Shown here in pieces: positions 13,763 to 56,235 of a stretch of 64,000 bases of DNA (position 1 is its first letter; every line of letters begins with the position of its first letter). The DNA comes from an uncultured Erythrobacter sp. (GTDB lineage: Bacteria > Pseudomonadota > Alphaproteobacteria > Sphingomonadales > Sphingomonadaceae), in the NCBI GenBank assembly GCA_937969505.1, contig CALBWA010000009.1, positions 1-64,000 of the forward strand, read 5' to 3'. The translations under genes and the position numbers were made by a program. The notes beneath the pieces are model-generated. The model did no database searches. It was not told the DNA's origin and saw only the letters and a program-made list of their open reading frames with translations.

Positions 13763-13861
13763 TTAGCGTCATCTTCGATAAACGCAGGCTTGCGCCATAG
13801 CTGCGGCGGGCCTATTGCCGCGCCTGTGAAAGACAGAGCGTTGCTTTGAATTTCACAATTG

Positions 13862-14056
13862 CGTGCCGGTAACGGGAACACGGTGAGGGTGGTTTTACCA
13901 CCCAATGCCGTGGCTGTCCCTGCAACTGTAAGCGGCGAGCGCGATGCCAATGCGGCTCCTTTTTTGATGGGGAGCAGCAGCCACTGGGCGGTCGAAAGAT
14001 CACCCGGGAAGGTTGGTAAGGCGCAGCGACCCGTGAGCCAGGAGACCGACCGGAAC
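13862..14056 (+). promoter_or_regulatory. Cobalamin riboswitch
   Basis: The region carries the conserved blocks of the B12 riboswitch in order: GCCGGTAACGGGAAC, GGCTGTCCCTGCAACTGTAA, GCCACTGGGC, CCCGGGAAGG, and the B12 box GAGCCAGGAGACCG near the 3' end. It lies upstream of a BtuB-type receptor gene on the same strand, the usual arrangement. No clear terminator was seen between it and the start codon, so control may act on translation or on a structure in the 180-base stretch 14057-14238. Confidence 0.93.
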
Positions 14057-14238
14057 GTGTCGCTCTTGCCCGGCTCAGGAATTGGCCAGGCGCGAAACTC
14101 TTCGTCTGAGCGACGATGTGCGGTTGGGACCGCTACGGTGTATTGGCATGGCGTGTGCGTCCGCTGGCCAACATAGCCGGCCGCTTGTGCGGTTGATCCC
14201 GACCCTCTGGTTGCTCTGGCGCATGAGGATGTTTTACA

Positions 14239-37529: not shown

Positions 37530-37584
37530 GCCGGCGGGCCACGCGGTCCCAACGCCGCGCGTGCTCTCTGTAAGGAGAGAATAC
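37530..37584 (+). promoter_or_regulatory. serC leader with two hairpins, the second covering the ribosome binding site
   Basis: CACGCGG (37540-37546) can pair with CCGCGCGTG (37555-37563) with a small bulge. Directly after it CTCTC (37564-37568) pairs with GAGAG (37575-37579) around TGTAAG, and that stem holds the Shine-Dalgarno GGAG of serC. This resembles the alphaproteobacterial serC RNA motif described from comparative genomics, by position and shape; I could not align it. It suggests translational control of serC. Confidence 0.6.
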
Positions 37585-42872: not shown

Positions 42873-44603
42873 ATGAAGATTGCTGGACTGATGGCTCTGG
42901 CGATCGCGCTGCTTTCACTGGTTGCGGCCGTAAGCGCGGCCACACGGCCTAGCAAACCTGCGATAAACAGTGTTGACGCTGCGGAACCTGCACCAACCTC
43001 ACAAAGTGGCTTCGAATACGGGCGCGCTATAGACAAACTCGCGGACGCACCCCTTGTCAGTTTGAATGACAAAACAGGCAAGTTGCAGTACGCGCTTTAC
43101 GCCAACCATAACCAAAAAAATGCCGACCATATGGTCCCAGACTTTTCCTATGCGGGTTATGGCGGCGGAGGTGTGGCCCTTCCTCAGTATGATAGTATTG
43201 AAGTCAAACAGACGCTGTCTGCGGCTCCGGGAGACAACCGCGCATCAATTCAAGCTGCGATTAACAGGGTTGCCGCGCTGCCCGAAGATCGACGCGGTAT
43301 TCGCGGAGCGGTTCTGCTCGAAGCAGGCGAATATCAAGTCAGCGGTCCTCTCGAAATCACATCAAGCGGTGTGATATTGCGCGGTTCGGGCCAGGGCGCG
43401 CGCGGCACGGTCTTGATTGCAACTACGAGAACGCCACGAACTACATTCCTATCCGTGCGCGGCGAAGGCGACGGGCGCCTGCCGAAAGAAGCCACTACAC
43501 CTCTGCGTACTAATATTGTGCAAGGCTATGTGCCAGTCGGGACGATCAGCGTCGAGGTAGCCGATGCGTCAGGTTACCGGACTGGGAATGCCATCGCGAT
43601 CGTTCGAACGCCGAATGCAAACTGGGTCGGCAGCGATGGAATAGATACTGCTCAATTTGGCTGGGAAGCTGATAGCTACGCACTTGCGGTTGAGCGCACG
43701 GTTGTGTCTGTATCAGGAAATAGAATTACTTTTGATGCCCCAATTACAGATACAATTGAAGAACAGTTTGGCGGTGGATTCGTTTACCGGACCGACACAT
43801 CAGAAAGACTGCAACAAGTTGGTATCGAAAATTTGCGTTTGCAGACGCTCGATTATGAAGATGTGAGCCGGGAAGATCGCGCCTCGTTCGCAATCGCCTT
43901 CCGGGAGGTAGAGAACAGCTGGGTACGTGACGTAACTTCTCGGTTCTTTTCCCGTGCTTTCAATTTTTATGATGGATCACGTTTCAATACGATGCAGGAT
44001 GTTGCGTTCATTGATCCTGATTTTGAAGTCGTTGGCGGGCAACATTACGCGTTCGACTTTAACGATGCTGGACAAAACCTTTTTCAGCGCTGTTACAGCC
44101 GTGAAGGGCGCCACAGCTTCACATCAGGCTCTCGTGCGACGGGCCCCAATGTGTTTTTGGATTGTCTCGCAGAGAACAGCACCAACGACAGCGGCCCGCA
44201 TCATAGGTGGGCGACAGGAACGCTATACGACAACGTAAGCGACAGCTTATTGCGTGTCCAAAATCGTGCCAATTCCGGAGGAGGGCACGGTTGGGCTGGG
44301 GCGCAACAAATGATTTGGAACAGCGCCCTAGAAGAATATGTTCTGCAGACGCCGCCTCACGCTATGAATTGGGCAGTGGGCATCACTGGTGGGCGCATCA
44401 TTGGCCGCTTCTCACCACAAGAAGCGATTGGAATAATCCAAAGTCAGGATAGCTACACTCCGGTTCGCAGTCTGTACCTTAAGCAGTTGGAGGATCGCTT
44501 GGGTCCGCAGGCTGTAAGAAATACTGCCGTCGCCGCGCAGCTGAACGGACAGATTTGGAACGAGCTTTCATCTTGGCGTGGCGAAGGTAAGTTTCGTCCG
44601 TAG
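42873..44603 (+). CDS. Secreted right-handed beta-helix protein, pectate lyase-like
   Basis: The 576-aa protein follows a GAGGATGGACATAAG site and has a signal peptide (KIAGLMALAIALLSLVAAVSAA). After a 100-residue N-terminal part, DNRASIQAAINRVAALPEDRRGIRGAVLLEAGEYQV... is the opening of a Pectate_lyase_3-like beta helix, and short turn-rich repeats continue to about residue 480. No catalytic set can be named, so it may be a polysaccharide lyase, hydrolase or epimerase or a structural protein. Base composition appears lower in GC and codon use less biased than in hisZ and purA, which suggests transfer. Confidence 0.72.
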   Translation: MKIAGLMALAIALLSLVAAVSAATRPSKPAINSVDAAEPAPTSQSGFEYGRAIDKLADAPLVSLNDKTGKLQYALYANHNQKNADHMVPDFSYAGYGGGGVALPQYDSIEVKQTLSAAPGDNRASIQAAINRVAALPEDRRGIRGAVLLEAGEYQVSGPLEITSSGVILRGSGQGARGTVLIATTRTPRTTFLSVRGEGDGRLPKEATTPLRTNIVQGYVPVGTISVEVADASGYRTGNAIAIVRTPNANWVGSDGIDTAQFGWEADSYALAVERTVVSVSGNRITFDAPITDTIEEQFGGGFVYRTDTSERLQQVGIENLRLQTLDYEDVSREDRASFAIAFREVENSWVRDVTSRFFSRAFNFYDGSRFNTMQDVAFIDPDFEVVGGQHYAFDFNDAGQNLFQRCYSREGRHSFTSGSRATGPNVFLDCLAENSTNDSGPHHRWATGTLYDNVSDSLLRVQNRANSGGGHGWAGAQQMIWNSALEEYVLQTPPHAMNWAVGITGGRIIGRFSPQEAIGIIQSQDSYTPVRSLYLKQLEDRLGPQAVRNTAVAAQLNGQIWNELSSWRGEGKFRP

Positions 44604-52739: not shown

Positions 52740-52815
52740 TGGTGGGCGATGACAGGCTCGAACTGCCGACCCTCTCGGTGTAAACGAGATGCTCTACCAA
52801 CTGAGCTAATCGCCC
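52740..52815 (-). tRNA. tRNA-Val (anticodon TAC)
   Basis: Minus-strand acceptor arms GGGCGAT/ATCGCCC pair perfectly with a discriminator A and encoded CCA. D-arm TAGCTCAGTTGGTAGAGC, anticodon stem CTCGT-type with loop reading TAC, and T-arm with GTTCGAGCC are intact. TAC reads GTA and related valine codons. Confidence 0.95.
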
Positions 52816-52900: not shown

Positions 52901-53893
52901 ATGAACAAGGCGGCAAACATCCTGATTTTGGCCACTGGCGGCACCATTGCCGGCACCGCGGGAGCAGCACTGAAGCGCGATTACCGGCCCGGGCAGATCG
53001 GCATTGATGCCTTTATCGATCAGGCCGAAGCGATGGGCGTGCCAGCGCGGCTGACGGGAAAAGAGATTGCCGCCATCGGGTCAGAGGACATTGGCCCGGA
53101 CATCTGGCGCAAACTGCATTCGGCTTGTTCCGCAGCGATGGTGGACCCGGGTGTGGACGGGGTGGTGATCACCCATGGGACCGACACGGCTGAGGAAACT
53201 GCGCTGTTGCTCGATCTGACCCTGCCAACCAATAAACCGGTGGTGCTGGTGGGCGCGATGCGCCCCGCAGACGCGGTCGGAAGTGATGGAATGCGTAACT
53301 TTATCAATGCGGTTCGGGTGGCAAGCGATCCCGACGCTTCGGGGAGAGGCGTGTTGCTGGTAATGAGCGACCGGGTGATCTCGGCCCGCGATGCGCGCAA
53401 GGCGCGGACCACCGGAACCGATGCCTTTCGCGGGTTTCCGCGCGATTCGGTTGGCAGCGTGACGCCCAGCTCGCTCGATTGGTTTGGTGATCCATGGGCG
53501 ACTGACCGTCCAGCGCGCTTTGACTTTCCCGATGCCTTTCCCATCGTCCCGATCCTGCATGCCTACGCCGGGATGCAGCCTGAGCTGGTCGATTGCCTGA
53601 TTGGCGGAACGGGGGAGCGGGCATCGGGGCTTGTGCTGGCGGGATTCGGTGATGGCAATGCCCCTGCGGCGATCCGCGATGCTTTGGCCAAGACTGCCCG
53701 GAACGGAACGGTAATTGTCCGTGCCAGTCGTGTGGATGAAGGGCTGGTCGACCGCGACGACGAGGACACTGGCGCAGGCTTTGTGGCGGCTCGCGGCCTC
53801 AACGCGGTCAAGGCGCGGATATTGCTGCAGGTGATGCTGGCGAGCGGGATCAGCGACCCCGCTGTTATCCAGCAAGCTTTTGATCGGCGTTAG
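52901..53893 (+). CDS. L-asparaginase
   Basis: The 330-aa protein has the two asparaginase threonine sites: LATGGTIAGTAG (Thr15) near the N-terminus and THGTDTAEETALLLDLT. The lysine and aspartate of the active site are in VLVGAMRPADAVGSDG. It is of the bacterial AnsA/AnsB fold and hydrolyses asparagine to aspartate and ammonia. It has no signal peptide, so it is likely cytoplasmic. Type I or II cannot be settled from sequence alone. Confidence 0.93.
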   Translation: MNKAANILILATGGTIAGTAGAALKRDYRPGQIGIDAFIDQAEAMGVPARLTGKEIAAIGSEDIGPDIWRKLHSACSAAMVDPGVDGVVITHGTDTAEETALLLDLTLPTNKPVVLVGAMRPADAVGSDGMRNFINAVRVASDPDASGRGVLLVMSDRVISARDARKARTTGTDAFRGFPRDSVGSVTPSSLDWFGDPWATDRPARFDFPDAFPIVPILHAYAGMQPELVDCLIGGTGERASGLVLAGFGDGNAPAAIRDALAKTARNGTVIVRASRVDEGLVDRDDEDTGAGFVAARGLNAVKARILLQVMLASGISDPAVIQQAFDRR

Positions 53894-53976
53894 TTTGGAG
53901 AGCGATGACTGATTCGCCGCGCCTCGCGTAAAAAACTGACATTCAGCTTACGACCCAATTGCTGAAGTTGGTTTTC

Positions 53977-54822
53977 TCATCGTTCCTCAATCGACACATC
54001 GAACTGATCGATCCACATTACGCCTTCGCCGCGCATGATTTCCGCCCCCAGTTCAACATCAGCAATGTAAGCACCATCGAAGTTCAGATGTGCAAGCGGT
54101 TCGGCACGCAGCAACGCAACAGGATCAAATTCAGCTGCAAATCCTTGGTCCTTCGCGACGAACGCAACGTAAATCCATTTATTGGCGTTCGCGCCCGAAA
54201 CGTCGTGCCAAGTTTCGTCTAACCAAATCTCCCACTCCGTCCCATCTCGCATAACTGTGCCGATCCTTGCACCTGCTGGAGAAAGATGGTCGGCGGTCGC
54301 ATAGGTCCAGATCATGACCTCCGCCACGATACTCTCTGGTTCGGCCTTAGTGACAATGTCAGGGTTGTCTGTGAGCCACAAAGTAGTGACGATGTTATGC
54401 TCGGTTGGCCCATCAAGCTCCACTTGTGTGGTCACTCTCATCGTTCCGATACCGTCAATCTCAATCGGGAAGCGTGTATCCAATCGAGGTAGTGGATCCC
54501 AAGGTGACATGCCGTTCTTGGCTTGCGGTTGCGCGTATATCTCCCGGCCTGAATTCGGCCATTTCCAATAGAACCCCAAACGTTCGGCGTCTACCGGGTC
54601 ACGCACAATGCACTGAGTCCAAGGGAAATCTCCGGCCGCTTGGACGTTCCAGACGTTGTTGAAGTAGATTGCCTCTCCCTGGGGCACCTTGGCCCACGCT
54701 TCGCATTCAAGTTCTTCAGTTAGCGGAGCCACCCATTCCTGGGTTGTCTGCGGAGTGCAGGCTGAGGTTAGAGCAACAACGAGTGGCCAGAGCATTACGG
54801 TTTCATGTGCCAGAATCTTCAT
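53977..54822 (-). CDS. Lipoprotein with a glycoside hydrolase family 12-like domain
   Basis: The 281-aa protein starts at MKILAHETVMLW and has a lipobox LTSAC (Cys22). The mature part shows GH12 landmarks in order: NNVWN, Cys-Ile, AEVMIWT with Glu168 in the nucleophile position, GARIGTVMRDGTEWEIWL, YVAFVAKD, and VELGAEIMRGEG with Glu261 in the acid/base position. GH12 enzymes cut beta-1,4-glucan or xyloglucan. Glu168, Glu261 and the spacing match, but overall similarity is low. The gene is alone on its strand between an asparaginase and an MDR gene and looks less GC-rich than its neighbours. Confidence 0.72.
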   Translation of the reverse strand: MKILAHETVMLWPLVVALTSACTPQTTQEWVAPLTEELECEAWAKVPQGEAIYFNNVWNVQAAGDFPWTQCIVRDPVDAERLGFYWKWPNSGREIYAQPQAKNGMSPWDPLPRLDTRFPIEIDGIGTMRVTTQVELDGPTEHNIVTTLWLTDNPDIVTKAEPESIVAEVMIWTYATADHLSPAGARIGTVMRDGTEWEIWLDETWHDVSGANANKWIYVAFVAKDQGFAAEFDPVALLRAEPLAHLNFDGAYIADVELGAEIMRGEGVMWIDQFDVSIEER

Positions 54823-55027
54823 TGGTATCACCAGTCGACTGCAAGTGTGTGTCTGATCGATATACTACACTATAACGCTGGACAACACCGACGTTCGCAT
54901 TCCACCCCAATTGCAGTCATACTGGGGCAGCCTGAAGCTGCGACAAAGAATTCAATTGCTGGATAGGCCGCCGAGCCGCGAGTCCCCGCCTAGGCAGAAA
55001 CTCGCAGACTCGATTCGGCGTGCTCAA

Positions 55028-56140
55028 TCAAGAATGCGGGGTTACGAGGTATTTCTCGCCGGTTTTCATCTGGCGATAATCTTGGATCGCTTCCTTGGTC
55101 AGCATCTCTTCTAGATTGACCTTAGCCTTGTAATGCGAGGCGAAAGTGGTCGTCAGGTTCTGCTGAACGCGGGTGCGCATTTTGACCACGGTTTCCATGC
55201 CCGCATTGGCCAGAAACGGTGTCAGCAGGAATCCTGAAACGGTCCATTGCAAGCCATAGGACGGGGTAAGAATGGTCGGGCCCAGGTCCAGTCGGCCGTA
55301 CATGTACATCTTCTTGTCCTGATTGGAGCCATAGCGCGAGAATTCATCCATCTGGCTGGCCGCAACCTGCTCCATCGCTTTCAGCACGCCATCGGTGGCC
55401 TGTCCGCCACCTATCGGATCGAAGCCGAGGAAGGCGCCCGTCGCCGAAATCGCTGCACGCAATTGCGCCATGTAATCATCATCCGATGAGTTCACGACAT
55501 GCTCAGCGCCCAGACCTTTCAGCAACTCGACATGCTCTTGCTTGCGCACGATATTGACCAGCTTCATTCCGTCTTCGAGGCAGATCTTGTTGAGCATCTG
55601 ACCTAGGTTTGATGCTGCGGCCAGATGAATGATCGCATCATGACCTTCCATCCTTGCGGTCTCGACGAAAGCCAATGCAGTCATCGGATTGACGAAGCTG
55701 GAGGCACCCTGTTCGCTGGTGTGCTCACCCAGTGGCAGGCACATCATCGCATCAGGGATCGCATATTGAGAAAAAGCATTGCCCGGCACACAGGCCACGC
55801 GCTGACCCATCAGCGCTTTGGCCATGTCGCTATCGCCGGTGGCGATGACGGTGCCGGCACCCTCGTTCCCGGCGGGCAGACGCTGTCCATGACGGCCTTT
55901 TTGACCCGACAAGAAAGGCTCGGGCATCTGCGCCACAACCTTGCCGTGAGAATATTCCGCATTGTCGAAGTCCGCCGCGCTGGTCAGGATCGCAAGATCC
56001 GACGGGTTGATCGGGGCCGCTTCCATCTTGACCAGAACCTGATTGCCGGTTGGTTCGGGAAAGCTTGCCTCGGCCACTTCCAGTGTCAGCGTGCCGCCCG
56101 CATCGAGGGTGGTAAAAAGTTGCTTGCCGGTGGTGGTCAT
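55028..56140 (-). CDS. Medium-chain dehydrogenase/reductase (zinc-free, quinone oxidoreductase-like)
   Basis: The ATG after CAGGAGAGACCGCA gives 370 aa. AAPINPSDLA near residue 45, GNEGAGTVIATG and the NAD(P)-binding AAASNLGQMLNKICLEDGMKLVNIVRKQEHVELLKGLGAEHVVNS are those of MDR quinone oxidoreductases and enoyl reductases. Zinc-binding cysteines of alcohol dehydrogenases are absent. The C-terminus is longer than in QorA. Substrate unknown. Confidence 0.85.
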   Translation of the reverse strand: MTTTGKQLFTTLDAGGTLTLEVAEASFPEPTGNQVLVKMEAAPINPSDLAILTSAADFDNAEYSHGKVVAQMPEPFLSGQKGRHGQRLPAGNEGAGTVIATGDSDMAKALMGQRVACVPGNAFSQYAIPDAMMCLPLGEHTSEQGASSFVNPMTALAFVETARMEGHDAIIHLAAASNLGQMLNKICLEDGMKLVNIVRKQEHVELLKGLGAEHVVNSSDDDYMAQLRAAISATGAFLGFDPIGGGQATDGVLKAMEQVAASQMDEFSRYGSNQDKKMYMYGRLDLGPTILTPSYGLQWTVSGFLLTPFLANAGMETVVKMRTRVQQNLTTTFASHYKAKVNLEEMLTKEAIQDYRQMKTGEKYLVTPHS

Positions 56141-56235
56141 TGCGGTCTCTCCTGTAAAAGTTTTCACCTCGCTAGGCGTGCAAATCGGGCTTGGCTAGGG
56201 TGACGTTAGGTCAACTTGGCCCGCGCTGGACGGCT

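Follow-up and report, generated by a model that had tools for sequence, protein, structure and literature searches.

A distant, predicted lipoprotein member of GH12 in an uncultured Erythrobacter, probably a β-glucanase gained as a single gene

One gene of an uncultured Erythrobacter sp. resembles an endoglucanase of glycoside hydrolase family 12 (GH12), carries a lipoprotein signal and stands alone among its neighbors. What does it encode, how did it come to lie there, and on which glucan would it act? We addressed these questions in the first 64,000 nucleotides of contig CALBWA010000009.1 (assembly GCA_937969505.1), called the window here. The product is very probably a retaining, lipid-anchored GH12 endo-β-glucanase for algal or plant β-glucan, acquired as a single transferred gene; its activity, substrate, surface location and transfer are what we infer from the evidence below. 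The features concerned are collected in Table 1.

Table 1. Positions of the GH12 gene, its predicted functional residues and its flanking genes in the window
Feature	Positions	Strand	Evidence
GH12 lipoprotein gene	53977-54822	-	Intact ORF; PF01670; GH12 fold match
Signal peptide, predicted lipoprotein type, residues 1-21 (ending VVALTSA)	54760-54822	-	PROSITE-like lipoprotein pattern
Cys22, predicted lipidated residue	54757-54759	-	Column invariant in 8 aligned clade sequences
Cys40, candidate disulfide partner of Cys71	54703-54705	-	Invariant in the clade; absent from other GH12s in the tree
Cys71, candidate disulfide partner of Cys40	54610-54612	-	Invariant in the clade
Glu168, predicted catalytic nucleophile, in AEVMIW	54319-54321	-	Invariant in 16 of 16 GH12 proteins compared
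Glu261, predicted acid/base, in ELGAEIM	54040-54042	-	Invariant in 16 of 16 GH12 proteins compared
Asparaginase gene, flanking the GH12 gene	52901-53893		
ADH-like (alcohol-dehydrogenase-like) gene, flanking the GH12 gene	55028-56167		

Family assignment and predicted fold

The intact open reading frame (ATG at 54822, TGA stop at 53977) encodes 281 residues, and its product is a genuine but distant member of GH12. PF01670 (GH12) is the sole Pfam family matched, with 53.5 bits (E = 4.7e-14) over residues 91-279 against a curated cutoff of 27 bits, a resemblance far beyond chance. All eight aligned members of the clade described below match PF01670 as well; an NCBIfam search of the window protein gave no match. 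With the single protein as query, phmmer retrieves cellulases, endoglucanases and xyloglucanases from the PDB, led by 2jem (E = 4e-8). A profile of eight relatives finds 39 PDB sequences, named as cellulases, endoglucanases or xyloglucanases, again with 2jem at the top (E = 8e-24).

GH12 enzymes employ two glutamates, one as nucleophile and one as acid/base, and retain configuration (PMC7303141). In the phmmer alignments, Glu168 lies opposite the Glu of TEIMIW in Streptomyces CelB2 (1nlr), and Glu261 aligns with the Glu of both GFEPW (1nlr) and GTEVF (2jem). At the Glu168 position, 2jem has Gln and 2jen has Ala, which look like engineered nucleophile variants. Both glutamates, within AEVMIW and GAE, are found at the positions given by the sequence-only reading. 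That reading also claimed a lipobox anchor, and residues 12-22 (WPLVVALTSAC) indeed match the PROSITE-like lipoprotein rule, with Cys22 as the +1 residue. Cys40 and Cys71 may form a disulfide bond in the lipoprotein GH12s.

An AlphaFold2 model, built on an alignment of four sequences (the window protein and three relatives), has a mean pLDDT of 67 and a pTM of 0.71. Confidence is low over most of the first 70 residues, with residues 1-49 and 57-69 unreliable; the better supported part spans residues ~120-280 and contains both Glu168 and Glu261. Foldseek ranks 2jem first among PDB entries (E = 2.5e-15, TM 0.82 by target length, 21% identity), and the best 50 PDB matches listed are GH12 enzymes. 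The protein is thus predicted to adopt the β-jelly-roll fold of GH12. An HMM search and a fold prediction had been proposed as checks on the GH12-like reading; both were run, and with a family match and a predicted GH12 fold that reading holds.

The Bacillus licheniformis GH12 xyloglucanase (2jem, 2jen) shares the fold, aligns over residues 53-278 and has the acid/base Glu motif at the same place, but it is only ~21% identical, and the lipoprotein signal and the Cys40/Cys71 pair belong to the window protein. Streptomyces CelB2 has the same fold and aligns at both Glu motifs, and Trichoderma reesei Cel12A (1h8v) also shares the fold, though each is only ~20% identical. Neither CelB2 nor Cel12A is known to be a lipoprotein.

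The lipoprotein clade and the insertion site

A search for related loci, with hits at 35-38% identity, led to Marinifaba and to two loci of Paraglaciecola. In the GH12 tree, the window protein forms one clade (99/98 support) with the solitary lipoprotein GH12s of Marinifaba, Paraglaciecola and genomes G1094, G017, G070, G389, G397 and G399. Identity within the clade is 34-60%. Its members share the Cys anchor, Cys40 and Cys71, the two catalytic glutamates and a set of Trp residues, the Cys pair and the glutamates being invariant; they differ from the window copy in their gene neighborhoods. The lipoprotein signal is present in most of them, and the G017 homolog, read from the start codon used, falls short of the strict pattern. 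By contrast, the ~800-residue GH12 proteins that this bacterial family also encodes (G047, G127, G166, G185) share the GH12 domain and the catalytic Glu pair but are multidomain, lack Cys40/Cys71 and occupy a separate branch. No characterized member was found among the solitary lipoprotein GH12s. A well-studied family thereby gains an uncharacterized branch that is probably lipid-anchored, though its general kind is already known. In one Paraglaciecola metagenome-assembled genome (locus L003, 1087-1965), the GH12 lipoprotein gene is split by a frame change, which sequencing error or decay could explain.

The solitary lipoprotein GH12s occur sporadically in their own family and in marine Gammaproteobacteria. 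GH12 is present in 4 of the 114 genomes of the genus. The family sample (301 genomes) has seven carriers, three with the lipoprotein type and four with the domain inside the ~800-residue proteins, and among 385 genomes of the class sample GH12 is confined to the window's own. When the 399 genomes of a phylum sample were searched with a clade profile, five gave a match.

As the sequence-only reading stated, the gene is isolated between unrelated genes, here an asparaginase gene on one side and an ADH-like gene on the other. A close relative, G394, has these two genes (81% and 95% identical, respectively) ~190 bp apart and no GH12 gene. Other relatives with both genes mostly have them adjoining, with gaps of a few bases to ~1.3 kb, and in G325 they are 7 kb apart; no GH12 was found across the genomes of these relatives. 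Nor is there a GH12 gene at this site in G389, G397, G399 and G017 (gaps of ~55-130 bp). Their copies adjoin what we take, from inspection of the sequences by eye, to be nusG in the first three and a tgt-like gene in G017. Because the site is empty in relatives and their own copies lie at other loci, the window GH12 is read as an insertion between the asparaginase and ADH-like genes. Its patchy occurrence, together with the empty site, suggests that it arrived as a single transferred gene, and numerous horizontal transfers have been described for GH12 (PMC12265866). It presents a clean case of a lone carbohydrate enzyme gene at an otherwise empty site. A transferred enzyme and a divergent subfamily had been offered as alternatives; the distribution and the empty site support the former, and since the two are not mutually exclusive, both fit.

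The neighbors of the window gene look like housekeeping genes, and so do those of its homologs. In the three congeners GH12 comes directly after the nusG-like gene; in locus L017 (7527-8914), two coiled-coil PspA-like genes then precede an rplA-like gene, a layout that may reflect a small insertion into a ribosomal operon region. Separately, the asparaginase gene of G318 (locus L041, 1501-1782) is apparently degraded, with a match to the C-terminal third only and an internal TGA.

It is unlikely that the clade is ancient in the bacterial family and reached its present pattern by repeated relocation and loss, with no transfer into this lineage. All six clade members from this bacterial family do cluster separately from those of Gammaproteobacteria, though at a support of only 83/89, and the deeper branching order is unsure because the tree is rooted at its midpoint and some branches are long. 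On the other hand, 110 of the 114 genus genomes lack any GH12. The window protein also has its sister in another genus (G017, 100/100) rather than in its three congeners (G389, G397, G399), which group apart (100/99), and its gene occupies a locus different from those of all three congeners and G017. Transfer of a single gene into this lineage is the reading we carry forward.

Glucan use and the probable substrate

With an asparaginase and an ADH-like gene as neighbors, the GH12 gene does not belong to a polysaccharide utilization locus. Elsewhere the genome has five GH3 matches. Two are in a TonB-receptor/GH10/GH3/LacI/GH5/GH3 locus, where the GH5 cellulase carries a CBM; one accompanies GH16, a TonB receptor and MFS and SSF transporters; and one lies with a rhamnosidase, a sulfatase and a TonB receptor. 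GH31 is the family of known α-xylosidases, and none was found in the ~90% complete genome by a search that was positive in six control genomes. A search of the same genome for BcsB, a bacterial cellulose synthase subunit, gave no match. At ~90% completeness, both absences are suggestive only. Because β-glucan/xylan loci are present while a GH31 α-xylosidase and BcsB were not found, a general endo-β-1,4- or mixed-linkage glucanase appears likelier than a full xyloglucan pathway or a dedicated xyloglucanase, and feeding is preferred over self-remodeling as the role.

A xyloglucan-specific endoglucanase, feeding on xyloglucan of land plants or green algae, is a possible if somewhat unlikely alternative. 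Sequence and structure searches both place the B. licheniformis xyloglucanase first, and the rhamnosidase/sulfatase/GH3 locus belongs to a type that targets sulfated rhamnose polymers; xyloglucan occurs besides ulvan in the walls of the green alga Ulva (PMC4498240). Yet 21% identity to the best match does not predict substrate, and the missing GH31 speaks against this specificity. Trimming or remodeling of the cell's own exopolysaccharide or cellulose, in place of foreign glucan, would suit a lone gene with a predicted envelope anchor and no surrounding utilization locus. It is very improbable given the lack of a BcsB match and a sporadic distribution that is ill-suited to a core envelope function. 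It is also quite doubtful that the lipoprotein GH12s, with their Cys pair and Trp set, constitute a distinct, functionally specialized subfamily, namely a mobile surface starter enzyme that provides inducer oligosaccharides for loci elsewhere.

For the favored general β-glucanase, the protein would be exported by its lipoprotein signal and then probably anchored to the outer membrane through Cys22. With Glu168 as nucleophile and Glu261 as acid/base, it would cut internal β-1,4 links by a retaining mechanism in soluble or amorphous β-glucan of algal or plant source, be it cellulose-like, mixed-linkage or a xyloglucan backbone. The released oligosaccharides could then pass to TonB-dependent receptors for uptake and to GH3 enzymes for finishing, both encoded elsewhere in the genome. 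The gene itself would have been inserted, as a single transferred unit, between the asparaginase and ADH-like genes. If active, the protein could be a starter enzyme for β-glucan use in a genome that has the downstream machinery.

Composition and other features of the window

The GH12 gene has a GC content of 53.4% and a GC3 of 0.56, compared with 59.5 ± 2.5% and 0.65 ± 0.04 for 45 window ORFs, and its codon usage is ordinary (rank 13 of 45). The low-GC island suggested from sequence alone survives only in part: the gene itself is GC-poor, but the stretch consists of this gene and its flanking spacers. A larger island is rejected on these grounds.

An imperfect 31-nt direct repeat (71%) at 53932-53962 and 54884-54914 was considered as a mobile-element scar and rejected, as such two-copy families often arise by chance. 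No inverted repeats were found, and the nearest tRNA gene (tRNA-Val, 52740-52815) is >1 kb away. Phage origin is rejected for want of any phage or viral-contig match, and plasmid origin because the only plasmid matches are to distant Azospirillum and Curtobacterium. Promoter and terminator scans found none, and the folding of the spacer is not unusual (z = -1.5).

Elsewhere in the window, a 576-residue ORF on the forward strand (42873-44603) matches no Pfam family, and its GC3 (0.51) is below that of every other window ORF compared; it may be another acquired gene. The forward strand also carries a Cobalamin riboswitch (13850-14068, 80.2 bits) and a serC leader RNA (37532-37584, 44.5 bits).
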